Notes under the pieces: generated by a model | The model's database searches: none | What the model was told of the DNA's origin: nothing | Seen by the model: only the letters and a program-made list of their open reading frames with translations | Shown: positions 21,301-32,414 of the stretch, in pieces | How the letters are laid out: the number at the start of each line of letters is the position of its first letter | Position numbering within the stretch: position 1 is the first letter of the stretch | Translations under genes and position numbers: made by a program | Assembly: GCA_002077065.1 (NCBI GenBank) | Contig: NAJO01000067.1 | Span: 1 to 64,000, forward strand | Direction of reading: 5' to 3' | Origin: Cryoendolithus antarcticus | Lineage: Eukaryota; Ascomycota; Dothideomycetes; Cladosporiales; Cladosporiaceae | DNA: 64,000 bases

Positions 21301-21995
21301 TCCTGGAACTCGCGCAACTCGTTCTTCTCCTCTTCCAGCTCTCTAAGGCGCTCGCGAATGTGATCTAGTAAATCGTCGATCTTGCCTCGCTTATTCTTCG
21401 ATTCGTCCATGATGCGAACACTCTCGGCACGGCGATCTTCGTAGACTTTGGTACCAGCGACCTCCTTCAGCATGAGTAGTCGCTCAGGGTCCTTCATGTT
21501 GGTGATGGCGGTGATGCGACCTTGTGGCACGATATAGTACGGATTACTCTTGGAGAAGCCCGCGCTCTCCAGCAAGCTCATGACTTCGCTCTTGGTGCTG
21601 TTCTTGCGATTGAGCGAGTACTCGTCCTTCTTCTGGCCGATGGTGCGGCGGAGGACAACCTCATCGCCACCGGTGGGGAAACGTTCATCCGAATTGTCGA
21701 AGAGGAGCTCGACGTAGGCACTCATCACGGCTGACCCAGCACCCTCATGCAGCAATGCCTGCCGCTCCTCACGACTCATACCCTGGTACTGATCGCCCAG
21801 CACGAAGCGGATGGCGGCGAAGAAGTTTGACTTGCCCGAGCCATTGCGGCCGACAATGACATTGTGCTTGGGCGAAAAGGGCTCCACTTCGGTGCGGTCT
21901 TTGTAGCTGCGTGATTGTCAGCGAAACGTCTGGGCGTACCATCTGCGACTTCCTCACCTCTTGAAGCCCTGTATGAAGATCTGCTTGATATGCAT
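18324..21995 (-). CDS. SMC3: Cohesin subunit SMC3
   Basis: Two exons: 21958-21995 (38 bp, starting MHIKQIFIQGFKS) and 18324-21906, separated by a 51-bp intron (GTGAGG..CGCAG, branch CTGAC). The joined product is 1206 aa, the usual SMC3 length. Walker A GRNGSGKS lies at 32-39. Long coiled coils flank a hinge (about 500-660) containing GCLGELFEFPDKYKTAIE. The C-terminal head has the ABC signature LSGGQKS and the Walker B region FYLFDEVDANLD. With SMC1 and the kleisin it forms the cohesin ring that holds sister chromatids together. The acetylatable lysine pair is not visible from inspection alone. The short first exon is easily missed, and without it the N-terminal strand of the ATPase is lost. 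Confidence 0.97.
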
Positions 21996-22839
21996 CTTGC
22001 CTGTGGCGCGCCGCGCAACCTGGTGAAGCCTTTTTCCTCAGCAGAGTCAACTGTTCAGGTCGCTCACAGGGTAAATGTCGCACATAGTGAGGATGTACGC
22101 GTCGATGTTATGAGACAAACTTTCGTGAGCCGCTCACACAAGTCTGTTCGGCACCTCCTGCTATTCGATGCACGCCACGCCCCTGCCTGGTTGGTGATAC
22201 CAAGCATGTTCCATATGTAGATGTAGCACAGTCCTGTGACCACATGCTATATATTTGTCACGCTTGAGAAGCAAGTATGAAGTGATAAGTGTGTGTTATT
22301 CTGCATACTGCAACCAAAGCTCGAGTCGTTGTGATCGTCTAGCCCGATCGCGTAGGAAGATCGATAAGCCGCGGCTGAAACATATGACTTGGCACGCAAA
22401 GTGAGCGAACGAGGGTGAGGGACAATGTCAGTGTTTCTCACGCATCTCGGTGCGCATGGCAGTGAGCGTAAAATCGTCACTATCTCATGCCTTGTCGACG
22501 ATTCCCAAAGTGTGCTGTTTTGGTGATGGAAACCACAGAAGGTAGGCTGCTTGCACATGTGTAACATATGCTATACCCGGGAGATGACATAGCCATGAAG
22601 CTGTGGACACCATAGTCAGCCACGCAGTCCGTTTCTGCATAGCAAATGAATGTCTAGCCAACAAGTACATGTAGAACTGCTTCCCTGCACGTTCTCAGCG
22701 GTGAGTAGCAGGAGTATGCTGGACGCAGCGGCTTGCCCAAACGGGACCTGCCCTAGCGGTAGCCTAAGTCAACCTCATCGCAATCCACGCCTGTGAGGTG
22801 GCTTCTTGTCTACCTGCAAGCCACACTCATTGACGAGCA
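21996..22839. other. Intergenic / promoter region
   Basis: This lies between the SMC3 start and the first stem-loop upstream of the Ulp1-like gene. I see no gene or clear element. It should contain divergent promoters. Confidence 0.5.
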
Positions 22840-22997
22840 GCGACACCTCTTCTGGTGCTCGCGTCCCTCTCTCTACAACCCCCTGTGACACCTCTTCTGG
22901 TGCTCGCATCAATCTCTACTCCTCCTCTGTGACACCTCTTCTGGTGCTCACAACCCACTTCTTAGTAACATCCAGCGACTCCTCTCCTGGAGCTCGC
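22840..22997 (+). promoter_or_regulatory. Array of four 23-nt stem-loops in the leader of the Ulp1-like gene
   Basis: Copies lie at 22840-22862, 22885-22907, 22929-22951 and 22975-22997, starting 45, 44 and 46 nt apart. Each can fold as an 8-bp stem with a 6-nt pyrimidine loop (TCTTCT or TCTCCT) and one bulged C on the 3' side: 5' arm GCGACACC, 3' arm GGTG-C-TCGC. Base changes are compensated: copy 3 has GTGA paired with TCAC, copy 2 is the T-G wobble intermediate, and copy 4 has CTCC paired with GGAG. There is no ATG between the array and the start codon at 23016, 18 nt past the last copy. The transcript boundaries are not known, so leader location is inferred. Confidence 0.8.
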
Positions 22998-23015
22998 ATC
23001 CCAATCTCTTCCTCA

Positions 23016-26000
23016 ATGGCTCCACCTTCCGCCAGTAATCTACAGTATGCTAGTACGACAAGAGGACGGCCAGGGGCTGTCAATGTGCGCGGAGCACATT
23101 CCGATAGATCAGGCCGGGCACTCATGAGACCATCGAGATCGGCGAACTCGATGCAAAGCATGCACTCAGTCACTCCCTCTGATGACGCTCGAACGGCAAG
23201 GGCAGCACAAAGCAACATTCGAGCAGGTGCTAGAGCCTTGACTCGGGAGTCCAGCATGAGGTCGACCCAGCAAACACGAGCCCCTGTGCAAGCCCCTCCG
23301 CAGCCCGGACGATCGGACACGACACCACGGCACCTTGCACTACCTGCGGTCACTCGCCCTTCCGTAGACGTTCTGACCAATTCGACTGACAAGTATCAGA
23401 CGTCCAGTACTCCGGACCGTCCGTCAAAGAGGACGAAGTCGGAGAGCGACGAGAAAGATTCCAGGCTTTCGCTCGACCAGTCCTCGACAATGACCTATGA
23501 GCACACGGCAGAGGTGTGTCGAGAGGTTCTTACTGACTCTCGCCAGATGTTTCCAGTCACCCCTGGCGTAGCGGAAGACTCGATCATCGTCAAGAACATC
23601 TTGTCCCAACTGTCGAGGCCATTCGTCACGCCGACGCAAACCCGAAGCGGATCTTCCCTGCACCCAGAGAATCTATCTCGGATTCATCGATCGCCGACTC
23701 CGCCACACGCATTTTTCGAGCCACTGTCCCCGTTGCTAACCCAAACTCGAGCCACGGGGCCAGGAACTAGCGTGGAGCTCGGACGTGATGCTGGGCAGTC
23801 TCCATCCATACCAGGCTGGGTCGATGACGATACTGCCAACGCAAACAGCTTGAATGTAGGTGATGAGACCGGCGTTGATGGTATCGATGATTTTGCCACG
23901 GCACTGGCGGCCGATCGCATGCGCACATCCACAGTTAAAGGTGGGAGCCTCGCTGACCTCGGCGACAGGCTGAATACAGTGAATAGCATTGGGGAGATGC
24001 CGGTGATGGCGGCCACACCCATAGGAGCTCGGAAGACAACTGATTCGCAGACAAGCCAAAATGGACATGAAGACAGCGACGAGGATGAAGTCCAGGAAAT
24101 CGATCCTGTGACTCAACAACCGAAGACGGCAAGTGCAGTCAGAGCGGAAAACCGGCTGATAGCGCAGAAAGGTGACGAGTACTTCCAGGCTGTAGTGAGA
24201 AGGCTGCGCGAAATGCATCAGAAAGGTCGTCACTTGCAGCTGCCATGGGTCTCACCCATGTTACGCATTGCCAACCGTTTCCAGACCGCTGATGAGCAGC
24301 GCATGGAGGTGCGCCATGATCCTCTCATGGCCTACCCACGGGCTTTCGGACTGGTACTGGGACGTGAAGACATGCAGCAGAACGTACCTTCCCTGACATT
24401 CGCGGCATATCTCAACATCCCACCGGAATGTATAGAATTCGACACCTCCGGATGGTACAACGAGAGTACGATAGAAGATCTGATCTTGTTGTCGGCTCCC
24501 GTGCCTGCGCCGGGCTGCCACTACGCCAGATTCTCCGAAACGTCGCCATGGCTTGATCCTAGCACAGGCTCACCTACCAGCCGCACTTTTGTGATGCGCT
24601 CGGTTATAGAAGAGCTGAACCATGCAATTAATGAACGTGGCCACAGACTGAGCCATGAAGCGCTTAGCGTCAAGATCCGCGGACGCTCGATGACGATGAC
24701 GATCCCGCGTCGTGAAGAGGCACAGCGTATCAAGTCGGTGGTCGCAGTAGTGTGGCACAATAGTCATTGGTTGACATTGCATATCTCGAACGGTCGCTGT
24801 TCATTATATCTTTACAATTCCATGAACGGTTCGCGAGGGAGAGCCGCCGGGGTAAACTCACAGGTGCGCGATCTGATCACAGCTTTTGCAACGCTCATGT
24901 CTATTCTCCATATATGGGATCAGCGGAGGTATCGTATCTTACCAGTTATCACGACGCAGCAGACCAACAGTAGAGACTGTGGTCCCATCACCGTTGATAC
25001 ATGCGTAAGCATCCTGAAGGGACGTTCGCGCAAGGTCGTGGATCCTATCCACGACAGGATAAACTTCCACAAACATCTGCGGGGCATGCATCTCAGTCTG
25101 CTTTATGAGCGACTGATGGGAGTTCGCATGTGTGAAGCCACTGCCGACAAGGCATCAGCGGAGCTGGACGAGTTTCATTTCGAAGCCGGCTACAACCCTC
25201 TGCTTGCCGCTGATGGACTGGACACGGACACGGACGCTGTGCCGGCGATCAGCGAGTGGTTGACATATGCTGACAATACTGGCGGCCATATTCGAGGGCA
25301 GATTTGCGAGTTCATGACTTCGCAGCAGCCAGTGCCCGTTACTACCAAGCAAATATGCGACGCCGTGCAGGCCTGTATCGACAAGACGCTCGACGCAGAC
25401 TCTCCTACCCCGTTGGATGATGAAACTCTTCTGGACCATGACACCGAAGATGTAGCTCCAGCTTCGAACGACACCGAGAACGTAGTAATTGTGATAATAA
25501 GGTCGACGCCAGAGGTATTCCGGATAGTGACGATGCCAGACGATTCTTTCGCATGGGTACTCTGCGATGGACCGGGTCGTGACACAGGGAGCAGCTGCCT
25601 TAAACAACATCTGAGGGATTCATCCGGATCGTCGGCCGAACGAGATATTCAGACTTCCAAGGCCGATTTTGCGTTCTGTCTAGTGGTCGTACGACACAGC
25701 CCAGGCCGTAAACGCAAGAATCCATACAAGGGAGAGAGGGAGACCGCCGTCCGGCACGAGGATGCTGCCGTGTTTGCGGACAAGCTGTTCAAAGCCTATT
25801 GGCAGTCGCACAAAGGAGTCAGGATACGAGGTCCCGTGGACCATACGGCGTACTTCTCTCCAAGGCGATTGAAGAGACCAGATCCGGAGATTTTCGATGA
25901 CAGGTTCTGGAAGACCATCGCCATGAACGAGACGTCAAGCCGTGTCGACTTCATGACAGAGCCCGACGGTACAGGGGCGTATGAGCTGCTCCTTGCGGCC

Positions 26001-26420
26001 AACGACCTCGCCCGTGACCGTGACCGGGCAATGAAAGTGCTCATTCTCGGCAGTGGCTGGGATGGTGTCAGTACGAACAATACGCTCTGGCCACAATTGC
26101 AGAGCTTATTCCCGCACCTCGAGATGGAGTTGTGTTTACGACTGACGACTCCATCGATCCCACGATGTCTCTTCGATGCCGAAGACGAAGATCCTGGCGC
26201 TGACCTTCTCCCAATGGCGTGGCCTAGATATGCGATCAAGGCGCTCGCAAGTCTTTACGCACGCGAATCATACGTGACACTGTCAGCTGATGAGCAAGCA
26301 CATCACCTGCAAGCACTACTGTTATTGCAGATCGCAAACAACAGGAAGGTATGCGCTCAAGAGAACCTATCACCCGTCGGCAACCAGCGCCATATTGACA
26401 TCCTTTGCAGCTTGACATGA
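23016..26420 (+). CDS. Ulp1-like (peptidase C48) cysteine protease-domain protein, 1134 aa
   Basis: A single long ORF. I start at ATG 23016 because the open frame upstream of it has no ATG and contains the stem-loop array. The N-terminal 450 residues are disordered, rich in Ser/Thr/Arg. The protease domain spans roughly 470-700: SHWLTLHI supplies His584, LYLYNSMNG has Asn601 at the spacing where Ulp1 has its catalytic Asp, and TQQTNSRDCGPITVD supplies Gln and Cys655. Ulp1/SENP enzymes remove SUMO or related modifiers. The Asp-to-Asn change may weaken or alter activity. The last 350 residues contain no domain I recognise. Ulp1 domains also occur in transposon-encoded proteins, but I see no terminal repeats here. 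The neighbouring helicase gene has the same kind of leader array. Confidence 0.75.
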   Translation: MAPPSASNLQYASTTRGRPGAVNVRGAHSDRSGRALMRPSRSANSMQSMHSVTPSDDARTARAAQSNIRAGARALTRESSMRSTQQTRAPVQAPPQPGRSDTTPRHLALPAVTRPSVDVLTNSTDKYQTSSTPDRPSKRTKSESDEKDSRLSLDQSSTMTYEHTAEVCREVLTDSRQMFPVTPGVAEDSIIVKNILSQLSRPFVTPTQTRSGSSLHPENLSRIHRSPTPPHAFFEPLSPLLTQTRATGPGTSVELGRDAGQSPSIPGWVDDDTANANSLNVGDETGVDGIDDFATALAADRMRTSTVKGGSLADLGDRLNTVNSIGEMPVMAATPIGARKTTDSQTSQNGHEDSDEDEVQEIDPVTQQPKTASAVRAENRLIAQKGDEYFQAVVRRLREMHQKGRHLQLPWVSPMLRIANRFQTADEQRMEVRHDPLMAYPRAFGLVLGREDMQQNVPSLTFAAYLNIPPECIEFDTSGWYNESTIEDLILLSAPVPAPGCHYARFSETSPWLDPSTGSPTSRTFVMRSVIEELNHAINERGHRLSHEALSVKIRGRSMTMTIPRREEAQRIKSVVAVVWHNSHWLTLHISNGRCSLYLYNSMNGSRGRAAGVNSQVRDLITAFATLMSILHIWDQRRYRILPVITTQQTNSRDCGPITVDTCVSILKGRSRKVVDPIHDRINFHKHLRGMHLSLLYERLMGVRMCEATADKASAELDEFHFEAGYNPLLAADGLDTDTDAVPAISEWLTYADNTGGHIRGQICEFMTSQQPVPVTTKQICDAVQACIDKTLDADSPTPLDDETLLDHDTEDVAPASNDTENVVIVIIRSTPEVFRIVTMPDDSFAWVLCDGPGRDTGSSCLKQHLRDSSGSSAERDIQTSKADFAFCLVVVRHSPGRKRKNPYKGERETAVRHEDAAVFADKLFKAYWQSHKGVRIRGPVDHTAYFSPRRLKRPDPEIFDDRFWKTIAMNETSSRVDFMTEPDGTGAYELLLAANDLARDRDRAMKVLILGSGWDGVSTNNTLWPQLQSLFPHLEMELCLRLTTPSIPRCLFDAEDEDPGADLLPMAWPRYAIKALASLYARESYVTLSADEQAHHLQALLLLQIANNRKVCAQENLSPVGNQRHIDILCSLT

Positions 26421-27943
26421 CAGTATTTGCGAAGTTGAGGCCTGCGCGGTGGTACTTGCGGCTCATGTGTTATGGCGGACTGTGCAAGAAGTTGCACTCT
26501 GGTGGGCGCCACGACTTGGACTGAGCGAAATGCAAGGCCCAGTTCTGAGAGGCAAGATTACGGAATTGGCGCGCTGTGGTGTCAATCACCGAAATACCCA
26601 TCGTCACCACTCTAGGCTTCCGAACGCACAGCATATCATATACCATGTGATATCCACGCCGTAGCACCTTGAACTCCTTCGAATTTGCTCGTGGTTTGTG
26701 TTGATGCCAGTGGCGGAAGGGCCTTGGGCGCTGTTACCGATGCAGTTTGTGCGCAAACGTTACCGAGGATGATGTGAAGGAAGGAAATATTAGCCGGCGC
26801 TGAGTGATCGCCGACTTCACTTCTTGTCTGGCGACTTTGTCATTCATCCCTCGTCTTCCCGCGCCATGCTAGAGGGCAGGCGGACCAGGGTCTTGCATCT
26901 CGCTGTCATTGCGCTCGTCTACTCGGTTTGTTTGCGATGTCGGATCCATGTCTCTCGGCGTTCAAGCAGAGGACAGCCGCCTCTTGCATGGTTTTCCATC
27001 TACCCCCAGGAGCCTCGACATGCCAGAGCTCGATCGCATGTAGAGTTGGATGAGATATTGGCGGTGTAAGGTTCGTCGTCACACTTGTCGCAGGTCAGAC
27101 AGCGAAAGAGATGTCCTCAGGCCCTCTGTGCGCCTACTTGGCACCGCTCCAGGGAGGATTGTGGGCGCCGCAGACATCGTATATCTGCACATCCAAGGCA
27201 TTGAGAACGCGACTTCCTCGGTGAGGCGTTTTCCAGTGTCTTTTAAAGTCTCCAGCTTCGCGCCTTGCTCTCTTGTCATGTCAAATTGGAGTAGACAATT
27301 CTGCTGCGCCGTAAGATTTCAGTCCTGTCACGGCTGCATTTGCCTCCCTTGCAGACTGTCTCCGAGATAGAAGATATGTTTGCGCTTCCTGCCTCTGCTG
27401 TGTTTGGCTGGCGCGACACCTCAGCGGCGCAGCGTGCCCACTTGAACTGGCAGGAACGATTGGCGGTGGCCAAGGCTGGTGGAGCATGCGAAGAAACCCA
27501 TCTTCGTACATGGCATGGTACCCAGTAGCGGTCATGCCCTACGTAGGAGGGGCTGTATCGTCTGCAAAGGAAAAGGTCAAACTCTGGGCTCTGCCGTGGA
27601 TCGACACTGTGGTAGGTGGATTGGTGATCATGAAGCAGATTGGAGGCGCGCAGCATACTAAAATCGGCACGTTGATGTGGTTAAGGCGCTGCGAATGTTT
27701 CATATTACTTGGTACCGAAGATGCTGGTAGACTCTGTGGTACGAATGAATAATAGCCTCGCACTCTGCGCTCGCCGCTGTCCTGGTAAATTGACCTACTC
27801 GCTACGTTCCCGCGGCGCACGGACCCAGCGCACTTTGTGTTCTGTACAGCAAACACGCGTCTGGGTTACAACTTTCTCTTCTTCAAATCCAACACCATTG
27901 TTGGACTCTGCAGTTGTTTGACCACCCTCCTCCGCCGACCCTC
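26421..27943. other. Intergenic, 1.5 kb, no gene seen
   Basis: Several short ORFs on both strands lack motifs and start codons in convincing contexts. The right end becomes pyrimidine-rich just before the second stem-loop array. Confidence 0.5.
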
Positions 27944-28069
27944 GCGACACCTCTTTTGGTGCTCGCAACCACCTCCCCAGCTTCACCCGCGACTCCTCTT
28001 TTGGAGCTCGCACCCCTCCCTCACCTCCCGCCTCACGGCACAACCTTCGACTCCTCTTCTGGAGCTCGA
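27944..28069 (+). promoter_or_regulatory. Array of three 23-nt stem-loops in the leader of the SF1 helicase gene
   Basis: Copies lie at 27944-27966, 27989-28011 and 28047-28069 (spacing 45 and 58 nt), in the same orientation as the gene. They show the same fold as the array at 22840-22997: 8-bp stem, bulged C, six-base loop (TCTTTT or TCTTCT). Arms are GCGACACC with GGTG-C-TCGC, GCGACTCC with GGAG-C-TCGC, and TCGACTCC with GGAG-C-TCGA. The last shows a compensated G-C to T-A change at the base of the stem. The array ends 14 nt before ATG 28084, and no ATG intervenes. Confidence 0.8.
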
Positions 28070-28083
28070 GCCCCGCCTCCCCA

Positions 28084-31000
28084 ATGTCTTCATTCGGCAT
28101 GCCCTCCTCCTCCAACGCGTTTGGAAAGCGGCCTGCGCCGTCGCGCAACTCGTTTGCGCCATTGGACGGAGCGCGCGTCCCTGATGAAGTCGAGGACGAC
28201 AACGACGGGCTGATCGAAGACGGTGCTGAGGACGATGACGACTTCGTGCTCGACAACGAGGGCGACTTGGCACCGAACAAGAGTGCCTCCACTGGCATCG
28301 TCGGCAAGCCGGCGACTCTCTTCGACAAGTACCCCCTTGCCAAGCTTACTGAGGCGCCAGGTCCGTGGTATGGCACTGGGCTCGATGAGCGCGATGCGAT
28401 GTTCGTACCGCACATCAAGTATGTCACGGAGCGATACGATGGCAGAGATTTCCCCGCCCCTTCGACGTTCAGGCAGACGATTGACATCCAGGGCAAGGCG
28501 GCTCCAAAGGATCTGAGCACTGCCGCAACTGCGATAGTGCAGTTTCCGATTTACACGGATAACGACGGCAACACCACGTCTTTCGGGTCTTTCGGTGGCG
28601 ACTGGTGGATTCAGATTGATCCGGTTATGCATAGCCAGCGCCCGGCCTTGAGACTGCGCATCAAGGGAGGCGATGGCGTCGGTGACTGCTGGACCTTCCT
28701 GTATCCGGACTGCGTTCGCCGCGATGCTGCAGGAAGCATCAAGAACAACTTCAACATCCTTGGTGGTACTAAGGCTGGGACCGACAATGTTGGCAACGAG
28801 GAAGTCCTCAAGGCTCGCCGTGGCAACAATCTCGTCGAGTACCGCATGCAGCGCTGGACCGCAGACGATGTGATCCCGGGCATTGGCCTTGCGACTGATT
28901 TTCCCAGATGGGTCGGCATTAGCGAGGACGACATTGATGCGATCGCCGATCAGGGCCAGAACACTGGAGCTGGACCCGGATACGAGGATCTCAGCAATCG
29001 GGACAAGCTCATTTGGTGCCTCCAAGCCTGTGCCGACATCAGAATCTTTAGACAATGGCCTGACAGAAACTGGACTCCGCTCGACAACCTCCAAGACTGG
29101 ATGCACGGCGTCTTCCAGCTCAATGCTAGACTCGGCTACTTCTGGTTCTACAGGCTCCAGGATCGCCATGGGGCTCTGAGACTCGAAGACTTCGACTTCA
29201 AGAGCTACATCCAGCCGCGATGGCTCGCGACTCAAGCACGTCTGGAGTTCACCACTGACGACAACAACAAGCAGAGCCTTTCTCTCAGCCCGGTCAAGGT
29301 GAACGGTTTCGTCCCGAACGCCAAGCAGAACTCGAAGATGGCCAGCAACTTCGTCTATCCAGACTCTGCGACACTGGTCTTTGAGTACATTGCTGGGCTT
29401 GAGAGGAACCAGGCCCATCAAGAGTTCGCTATTGCTGCGCCATTCGCCAATCTTGATTTCAGCATCAAGGCCGACGTTAGGTGCCACGATACGGAGCAAG
29501 GCGTCTACTTCTTGGCGCTCAAGAACGGCGAGAGCAAGGTCCTCAAGGCGGACTCGAGCTTGCGTCCAAAGAAAGGCTGTCGTGTGGAGATCAACGTACG
29601 CAAGTACGACGGCAATGATCATCCGAGCAACTACGTCCTTCTCAAGGGCCAGATCTCCGCGGACTTCTTCGGCACCGGCGCAGACGTGAACTGTGTTGTA
29701 GAGGGTAAGCCTGATCTCGCCCCTGGTACCTACGCCGTCTCGGTTGAGATGAAGAGCGATCCGACACCCTGCAATTGTCAGAAGGCTGCCCTGATCGAGT
29801 TGCTGTATGGCTGCCAAGATCGCAAGCAGGGACCAGACTTCAATCAGGCCTTGTTGCAGGCACCCGCTACGCGCGGACTCGTCACCAACTCTCTTGCCCT
29901 GGAGCTAGCGGCCTCGCCTGGCACGCTGGAGACGATTCTTGCGACTTTGAAGAAGCGGCGCAATCTCAACGACATGCAATTCGCAGCCGCCAAGCATGCT
30001 CTCACTGGCAAGAAGGGTATCACCCTACTTGTTGGTCCTCCGGGCGCAGGCAAGACAGAGACCGCAGCTGCCATCGCGGAGGCTCACTACATGTCCGGGA
30101 AGAATCTCAACAAGCGTCGTCCGATACTGTACGTGGCGTCTTCGAACTACGCCGTTCAGCAGGGCCTGATCAAGCTGAAGTCCCATATGGATACCAATGG
30201 GAAGATCTACACTCCTCACGTTGTCCATTACAAGGGCAGCTTCCTATCGAAGCCGAAGGAGCGCAAGAAGAAGGAGGCTGATACCACCATGATCGACATC
30301 GACAATGAGAGTGAATTCGGCTCTGACGACGATGACGACGGCGAGGAGGACGATGCGGATGTGGACGCCGTTGCTCGACTCGCCATTGCGCAAGAGAAGG
30401 CTAGCAAGCGTGCTGAGGAGAAGATCGCTGCGCGTCAGCGTCGTCGTGAGCGCAGAGAGCTCGGCTGGGACATGGCAAACGCAGCCATGAGGAAGAGTGT
30501 TGACGACAGCAACGAGAACAGCTTCTACCTCAAGCGCCATAACTGGATCGCCAGTGTTGCTACCTTGGCGAATCATTCGATGCAGAAGAACGCCGTGAAC
30601 TACCTCGACCTGCTGAAGAAGAAAGAGGAGCGGAGCTTCCCCAAGAATGACATGAATGCGAGGTTCAAGGAGCTGCGGGCACTCGAGTGGGAATTGAGTG
30701 CGTACTACTTCGAGAATGTAGTGGACATAGTCTTCTGCACAAGCAACACGGCCGCCCGAGGTATGTTGCGTACGCTCGGCAAGTTCAAGGTCATCATCCA
30801 GGACGAAGCTGCCCTCACCGCCATTCCGGATGCTGCTACTCCGCTAGCGTCTTTCATTGACCGCTGCTACTCCGCTAGCGTCTTTCATTGACCACTGCGA
30901 GTATCTTGTGCTCGCGGGTGATGACGCTCAGCAGCGCCCAATGGCGACATCAATGGGCTACAACGAGTTCTTCGAGGTGCTCACTCGATCCTTCTTCGTG

Positions 31001-31924
31001 GTCATGAAGAATAGCCGCATGTGGGATGATTGCCTGGTCGAGCTGGACACGCAGTACCGCATGCACTCGCAGATTGCGAAGCCCGTGAGCGACATCTGGT
31101 ACAAGGGCAAGCTCAACAACGGGCCCAACACTGACGACGACACGCCCGAGTGGCTGACGATGCAGAAGTTCCTTGACACCCTCCGCCCGGCCTGGAATGG
31201 GCGTCGAATCATCGCGATCGATTGCAGTGGCTCGTACTCTCACTGCCCGGGCAATGGTACGTCGCATGTCAACGACCTCGAGGTCGATACTCTGCTTCGT
31301 TTCGCCGACAGAGCGATGAAGACCGTGCCGCCCCCTGGAGGCGTGAAGCTGGAGCCTCGCCACTTCTTGATCACCACTCCCTACAATGCGACCAAGTGGG
31401 AGATCATCACCAAGGGTGGCGAGTTGGGCATCTCGCAGAAAGGCAACCGCCTCGATGTTCAGAACACGCGTGCCGTGCAGGGAGGTCAGGGTATATTCAA
31501 CTTGATCTCGTTTGCGAAGAACAAGGCGGGCAAGCCTCTTAGCCTGGGCATGGTCGGCGACTCGCACAACTTGAACGTCACCTTGTCGCGTGCCATGTGC
31601 CTGCAAGTCATATTTGGCAATATCGCGCCTTGGGTGCAGGCTGTGGAGAACCAGGCGCCGATTGTCATGCGTGGAGGGGACCTGGAGTACTTCGGCAAGG
31701 TGATCGAGAGCATACACACGAACAAGGACGCCATAGCCATGGCGGACTTGAACTCGCTGATGCCCATCGATGAGGACGCCATGGCCGTTGAGGTCAAGGT
31801 GCCTACTTTCGACGCCATGATCAAGACGAACGAGAAGGGCAGGGCGAAGAAGGCGAAGGCGGCCACCGGGGTAGAGAAGAAGTCGGCATTCGGCAGGCAA
31901 GAGCAAGGTGTTCGCAGGCGCTGA
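28084..31924 (+). pseudogene. UPF1-like SF1 helicase (AAA_11/AAA_12), frameshifted by a 31-bp duplication
   Basis: The first open segment, 28084-30891, encodes 935 aa: an acidic N-terminus, a large N-terminal region without a domain I know, then Walker A GPPGAGKT (651-658), an acidic/basic insert, and the Walker B segment VIIQDEAAL (Asp907-Glu908). The frame then shifts at a perfect 31-bp tandem duplication and stops at 30891. The next frame, to 31924, continues with motif III LVLAGDDAQQRP, LDTQYRMHSQIA, and motif VI-like NVTLSRAMCLQVIFGN, ending in a basic tail. Without the extra copy the two parts would form one protein of about 1270 aa. The family includes UPF1 and NFX1-type RNA helicases; the exact role is unknown. 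As read, the product lacks half its helicase core. It could be a true pseudogene, a strain-specific allele or an assembly error. Confidence 0.8.
30832..30893 (+). repeat. 31-bp perfect tandem duplication inside the helicase gene
   Basis: The unit 30832-30862 is repeated at 30863-30893; both begin GCTGCTACTCCGCTAGCG and end TTCATTGACC. The length is not divisible by three, so it shifts the frame. Sequence on both sides is normal helicase coding sequence in two frames that become continuous if one copy is ignored. Confidence 0.97.
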
Positions 31925-32414
31925 TCAACGTCGGTGAGCACCACCCCCTTCACGCGACGCTAACTCGTGATAGGCTGTCAATCGTCTGGAGCATTGATCG
32001 AAGGGTGGACAGGAGCAGCGAGTGGTTCGAGGGAGGACAAGAGAGCGTGTGCGTGATTGATGAGGTAGCGGTGGGCAGAAATGGTGGGCGTATGTATGCA
32101 TTGTATTGAAAGATGCAACCCACGTATGTATATCAATACCGTGCTTAACGGAAAGGCTGTCACTCGCAATATCGCAGCTTAACTCCTCAATGGACATCAG
32201 CCAGCGAAGTGACAAAAATTCAAATACAGCCTCCCACTTGTATATCGATAACTTATATAGCTCTGGTCACTCTTGTATGTATCGATCATCCATAAGAAGC
32301 GGATGGACTTTCTTCCGATCTGAACCTTGGCCTACTCATCGCTGCACTTTGTCACCACCCATCAAGCTCATCTCCATCTTCATCACTCACTCATCACCTC
32401 ATACTATATCGATC
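31925..32414. other. Intergenic, YAF9 promoter and leader
   Basis: AT-richer DNA between the helicase stop and the YAF9 ATG. No further feature is seen. Confidence 0.5.

Follow-up and report, generated by a model that had tools for sequence, protein, structure and literature searches.

Why should two neighbouring genes in one fungal genome each be preceded, directly before the start codon, by an array of the same short hairpin? The question is raised by a locus of Cryoendolithus antarcticus (formerly Rachicladosporium antarcticum, as given in PMC10739867) within the 64,000-nt window analysed here (C114:1-64000, the whole stretch of DNA under study). A 23-nt element occurs there in seven copies on the + strand, four in array A (22840-22997) and three in array B (27944-28069), which confirms the coordinates given in a preliminary description made from the sequence alone. 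Both arrays are oriented with the genes downstream of them and end 14-18 nt before the start codons at 23016 and 28084, again as first described. They probably represent a shared RNA control element before two neighbouring genes. More specifically, we assign a probability of roughly 0.6 to the reading that they act at the RNA level as operator arrays, one in the 5' leader of each of two adjacent genes, where a protein recognising the loop and the bulge binds and thereby coordinates both mRNAs. The seven copies are as follows.

22840-22862, + strand: hairpin a1, GCGACACC-TCTTCT-GGTG-C-TCGC
22885-22907, + strand: hairpin a2, second pair U-G, complete stem on the + strand only
22929-22951, + strand: hairpin a3, second pair U-A
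22975-22997, + strand: hairpin a4, sixth pair U-A and loop UCUCCU, followed by 18 nt and then ATG 23016
27944-27966, + strand: hairpin b1, loop UCUUUU
27989-28011, + strand: hairpin b2, sixth pair U-A and loop UCUUUU
28047-28069, + strand: hairpin b3, outer pair U-A and sixth pair U-A, followed by 14 nt and then ATG 28084

Folded alone, all seven copies adopted one common structure, ((((((((......)))).)))), that is, an 8-bp stem with a UCUYYU hexaloop and, four pairs beneath the loop in the 3' arm, a single unpaired C. The bulged base was C in 7/7 copies and the loops (UCUUCU in four copies, UCUUUU in two, and UCUCCU in one) contained purines at 0 of 42 positions, in agreement with the stem, single bulged C, and six-base pyrimidine loop proposed earlier. 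The folding energies of single copies ranged from -9.0 to -11.1 kcal/mol, with z-scores of -2.98 to -4.84, and the numbers of shuffles per 200 that folded as well were 0, 3, 0, 1, 0, 2, and 0 for a1, a2, a3, a4, b1, b2, and b3, respectively. The copy starts were 45, 44, and 46 nt apart in array A and 45 and 58 nt apart in array B; thus, intervals of 44-46 nt, which had been counted as five, number four of five. The mean pairwise identity was 86% among the hairpins versus 51% among the spacers, which suggests that the hairpin, not the whole unit, has been held.

Standard pairs occupied all 56 pair cells (seven copies by eight pairs), and three of the eight pairs had changed on both sides, namely pair 1 (GC in six copies and UA in one), pair 2 (CG in five, UA in one, and UG in one), and pair 6 (AU in four and UA in three). 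The differences between copies thus keep the pairing, as had been claimed. The preliminary description had named a covariation test against background. On three of the five measures used, 0 of 500 column shuffles reached the observed values (covariation score, percentage of cells paired, and count of doubly changed cells), and covariation fell to zero when the partner was slid by 1-3 columns. Because the copies are related by duplication, we also used a null model in which eight minimal events were placed at random sites on the observed groups of copies. Every pair stayed intact in 1,362 of 1,000,000 such runs, and none of these contained three doubly changed pairs. When the eight variable sites were fixed and the events and bases were dealt at random, 17 of 300,000 runs stayed paired; when sites and copy groups were both fixed, 6,597 of 300,000 did. 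A scan for the hairpin geometry, allowing at most one G-U pair, found the 7 copies in the two array regions, compared with an average of 0.009 per Markov shuffle and never more than 1 in any of 2,000 shuffles. The same scan was applied to both strands of a 264-kb set, comprising the window and 20 stretches of 10 kb picked non-randomly around pattern matches and a related block on the contig C90, and gave 46 occurrences including these 7, with the two arrays as the sole neighbours within 80 nt. Selection on pairing is well supported at the sequence level.

The arrays lie near the downstream ends of two presumed 5' leaders, each continuing into an open frame on the same strand.

22719-23015, + strand: presumed 5' leader A, the previous ATG starting 300 nt before 23016
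23016-26420, + strand: gene 1, an open frame of 1134 codons with a C48 (Ulp1-type) peptidase match at residues 578-674
27748-28083, + strand: presumed 5' leader B, the previous ATG starting 339 nt before 28084
28084-31924, + strand: gene 2, a UPF1/SEN1-type SF1 helicase with AAA_11 in frame 28084-30891 and AAA_12 in frame 30857-31924

No ATG lies between either array and its start codon. The sequence between and after the hairpins was poor in G (0-5% in leader A and 5-14% in leader B). In two folds of 150 nt, one of them lacking most of a4, the spacers stayed largely unpaired, with some flanking bases paired near a1 and across array B.

The preliminary description had allowed for either an RNA element or an array of DNA sites. 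The RNA half of that alternative fits better, because the bulged C breaks the dyad symmetry of the DNA in 7/7 copies and the changes are compensatory. RNA of the gene strand in particular is favoured because the G-U pair of a2 has a partner on that strand only; in the minus-strand fold, a2 lost its lower stem (-6.4 versus -9.0 kcal/mol on the + strand), while the other six copies kept the complete stem. Judged by these features, gene-strand RNA fits best among RNA, DNA, and peptide. Were the 23-mers near-palindromic sites for a dimeric transcription factor in two promoters, this would suit their upstream position, common orientation, regular spacing in four of the five intervals, and occurrence before two genes only. 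However, the half sites would then differ by an extra C retained in every copy, the correlated changes on both arms are not demanded by a DNA dyad, the last interval is 58 nt, and the arrays reach to within 14-18 nt of the ATG. We consider such a DNA site array unlikely.

The restriction to two genes was examined across the genome (47 Mb in 149 contigs). The core pattern had 7 matches, all in these arrays, and the reversed control had 0. With up to 3 mismatches, there were 76 forward and 88 reverse matches, compared with 111 and 115 for the reversed-pattern control; among the matches listed outside the window, at least two places had 1 mismatch and at least nine had 2. The inner hairpin with a fixed loop (CNCCTCTYYTGGNGC) matched 16 times, 7 of them in the arrays (controls, 3 and 2). 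By eye, two of the nine outside matches (on C2 and C24) retained the inner stem, neither with a complete outer stem, and the one on C2 fell in long open frames. A fixed stem with a free loop gave 29 matches, 7 in the arrays (controls, 21 and 21); the variable pair was kept by eye in ten of the 22 outside matches (eight Watson-Crick and two G-U), which were scattered and had other loops. A two-unit array pattern matched 8 times, 5 of them in the arrays (controls, 2 and 0), and the three outside matches formed 2 and 4 of the 8 pairs in their two units and did not share the fold. These patterns would miss arrays with another loop or closing pair. In the 264-kb set, a covariance model scored the seven copies at 38.6-41.6 bits and the best of 14 other matches at 18.4. 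A BLAST search of the genome with array A returned only itself and missed array B, and is thus not a valid negative. The search for further copies that had been proposed yielded none beyond the seven in this genome, which is the outcome foreseen in one half of a refuting condition of the preliminary description (no other copies in the genome or in related species). A genome-wide regulon of this sequence family was considered and rejected, as the looser patterns were at chance level outside the arrays; with no further family member in the genome, this is a single-locus system rather than a regulon.

Repeats confined to one locus may also be functionless tandem repeats, homogenised by duplication and gene conversion, in which the hairpin is incidental. 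Part of array A (22842-22949) was indeed detected as an ordinary 45-bp tandem repeat, and spacers 2 and 4 are 71% alike. However, conversion would not hold the hairpin while the spacers diverge to the degree reported above, nor would it yield compensatory changes, and the two arrays lie 5 kb apart in the same place before a start. This explanation appears very unlikely.

The surroundings of the arrays suggest a further possibility, as both lie within a stretch that one of two related loci lacks.

22011-32359, no strand assigned: stretch with no equivalent in the C90 block, holding both genes and both arrays

A collinear duplicated block was observed between positions 12452-35582 of the window and C90. 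The flanking proteins shared 95% (RIO-domain), 96% (SMC), and 99.6% (YEATS, over 264 residues) identity with their C90 equivalents, while the DNA identity in the SMC and YEATS parts was 85-88%. Similarity to C90 stopped at 22010 and resumed at 32360, and the corresponding part of C90 lies at local positions 5038-5280 of C90:14900-24899; the start codons of the SMC gene, whose product we take to be SMC3, and the YEATS gene are 314 bp apart on C90 and 10,419 bp apart in the window. The collinear block is consistent with a large duplication or a hybrid origin. More proteins than expected for the genome size have been described in C. antarcticus, as given in PMC11412873. The difference of about 10.35 kb may reflect an insertion on C114 or a loss on C90, which are not distinguishable because the flanking non-coding DNA has diverged and no terminal repeat is conspicuous among 25 of the 47 inverted pairs; as these flanks no longer align with C90, the ends of the stretch are not fixed to the base.

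Bulged hairpins act as single-stranded DNA (ssDNA) sites in integron attC and in elements of the REP/IS200 type, and the copies could thus be ssDNA hairpins serving as recombination, replication, or transposase sites of a mobile element that corresponds to this stretch. The lack of a C90 counterpart and the position of both arrays within the stretch would suit such an origin. However, the arrays are internal and lie before start codons rather than at the ends of the stretch, the same 25 of the 47 inverted pairs include no conspicuous terminal inverted repeat, and the three frames of the two genes contain no mobility-enzyme Pfam domain. Moreover, each of the two proteins was found once in the genome, and a DNA search with positions 21900-28120 found a single copy, except for 61 bp that also occur on C90. 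We regard a mobile-element role as quite improbable.

It had been argued that the copies share no reading frame with each other or with the downstream genes and that peptide selection therefore does not explain them. The frame argument was misstated: relative to the ATG that follows, five of the seven copies are in a common frame, and one copy lies in each of the other two frames. The five in-frame copies read DTSSGAR, DTSSGAR, DSSPGAR, DTSFGAR, and DSSFGAR, so that the repeats could encode a peptide repeat, D[TS]S[SPF]GAR, if both proteins were extended at the N terminus; the ATG frames are open through both arrays, and array A has near-cognate codons in frame. However, between the in-frame stop at 27919-27921 and ATG 28084, array B has neither an AUG nor a near-cognate codon in the ATG frame, and the sequence from that stop to b1 contains no AG acceptor. 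Hairpin b1 is therefore unreadable in the ATG frame by such initiation or by canonical splicing, which excludes its coding by ordinary means and makes it unlikely overall. In addition, a3 and b3 are out of frame with the hairpin kept, and two of the six variable positions within the seven codons, counted on the alignment, are third positions. The case against peptide selection thus comes from these other grounds, and we rate the chance of a coding role as very small. An antisense RNA of the opposite strand, in which the loop would be of purines and the bulge a G in the 5' arm, is similarly far-fetched, since six copies keep a complete stem on that strand but a2 does not, and the arrays point along the two genes rather than opposite to them.

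The two genes themselves are difficult to place. The C48 match of gene 1 scored just over the Pfam cut-off (22.9 versus 20.7 bits), and by eye its motif presumably has Asn at the position where Asp is usual. The catalytic part of the C48 match is missing from the NCBI model of gene 1 (B0A48_17618, Cryoendolithus antarcticus), even though no stop codon interrupts the frame. Gene 2 showed weak similarity to SEN1 and NAM7/UPF1. Protein searches for homologues of the two products, in which approximately 7,990 word-sharing candidates were scored each and distant relatives could be missed, returned only the window's own products. A direct repeat also lies within the helicase gene.

30832-30898, no strand assigned: 31-bp tandem duplication, 2.2 copies with 97% matches, at which the helicase frame shifts

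Several observations weigh against the interpretation of the arrays as RNA operators of these two genes. The helicase frame is interrupted at 30832-30898, and at least one gene may be decaying; the duplication may be real decay or a (short-read) assembly error. The NCBI model of gene 1 starts at 23256, not 23016, with different splicing. ATG-free gaps of at least 300 nt cover 4.6% of the window, which makes the argument from ATG-free leaders a modest one. Other leaders in the window were richer in G (17-25% at six genes, 27% at the SMC gene, and 33% at its C90 copy), with most of the starts being unverified; in favour of the interpretation, however, G-poor leaders were also found at the neighbouring YEATS gene (9% G) and its C90 copy (8%). 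Finally, the covariation comes from seven duplicated copies within one genome and, as read from their alignment, would amount to about three independent compensations, and two of the five covariation measures, the number of doubly changed pairs and the extra pair types, were reached by 21 of 500 column shuffles.

If the arrays are indeed RNA operators, each transcript would carry three or four hairpins, separated by G-poor, mostly unpaired spacers and placed next to the AUG. The predicted protein would recognise the pyrimidine hexaloop and the bulged C and occupy several copies at once, and its cooperative binding could switch the translation, stability, or location of both mRNAs together. Since the arrays lie directly before the AUG, hindered scanning or initiation would be the likeliest output. 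A more speculative extension, which we consider doubtful, is that the Ulp1-like protease and the UPF1-like helicase form a self-contained two-gene module, present at only one of two duplicated loci, that regulates itself via a private hairpin array in both leaders, read by one of its own products or by a dedicated fungal RNA-binding protein. An RNA operator array would be a compact natural example of multi-site control at the RNA level in a eukaryote and would tie together, as one module, two genes that are not otherwise placed. The covariation within a single genome makes the RNA hypothesis directly testable.

How does this element compare with known systems? Rfam 15 (4227 families) gave no match to the window at the gathering score; with E values up to 10, five matches appeared around array B, all far below gathering, and none around array A. 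A viral collection yielded three single matches, which are probably due to chance. All three lay inside open frames of 100 codons or more, and two had a similar fold. The two-unit pattern had no match in viral contigs or in prokaryote contigs. The earlier statement that no such fungal element is known agrees with our searches, as neither Rfam nor the accessible parts of the open-access literature searched described repeated, pairing-conserved hairpins before fungal start codons; the papers that the literature searches did bring up dealt with an earthworm iron regulatory protein, bacterial ANTAR regulators, and IRE1 in cancer cells. As far as searched, the element is probably a cis-acting RNA hairpin, arrayed and private to one locus, of a kind not previously described in fungi.

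The working analogy would be the iron-responsive element (IRE) or a coat-protein operator. The IRE is a short hairpin in the 5' untranslated region (5' UTR) that has the hexaloop CAGUGN and, 5 bp beneath it in the 5' arm, a single bulged C; protein binding to the element represses translation. The present hairpins resemble it in having a hexaloop and a single bulged C. However, their loops are UCUYYU, with CAGTG occurring 0 times in either leader; their bulged C belongs to the 3' arm and is separated from the loop by an upper stem of 4 bp; and each leader carries several hairpins, none with an Rfam match at the gathering score. The Smaug/Vts1 recognition element (SRE) is likewise a short mRNA hairpin, with CNGG in its loop and a loop-binding protein, and Vts1 is present in fungi. 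A loop-binding protein may similarly read the short hairpins proposed here, but CNGG is absent from b1 and b2, and its GG is stem-paired in the other five copies. The Ssd1 5'-UTR motif, CNYUCNYU, occurred twice in leader A (shuffle mean, 1.0) and once in leader B (shuffle mean, 0.6), always in spacers and never in hairpins.

Among fungal motifs obtained by comparative genomics, PMC5640933 describes SDC, hexA, and an AU-rich hairpin, and PMC8216456 describes 17 structural RNAs; like the present hairpins, these elements are structured and belong to fungal mRNAs or lie close to them. SDC, as presented in PMC5640933, is a small hairpin with an 11-bp stem directly upstream of one gene, found at S-adenosylmethionine (SAM) decarboxylase genes in 26 species, and 8 of the 12 examples of the AU-rich hairpin come from one species (PMC5640933). 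Unlike these motifs as described there, the present arrays repeat one hairpin at two dissimilar genes that lie side by side in a single genome, and the word 'tandem' occurs 0 times in the main text of either PMC5640933 or PMC8216456. The bacterial ANTAR/EutV leader hairpins, as far as the sources consulted describe them, are likewise hairpin operators bound by a protein, but are bacterial and have other sequences and outputs. The phage coat-protein hairpins of MS2 and PP7 are also protein-bound hairpin operators; they differ from the arrays in belonging to phages and in their sequences and outputs. If the self-regulating module suggested above were true, it would constitute a eukaryotic counterpart of such phage-type multi-copy RNA operators.

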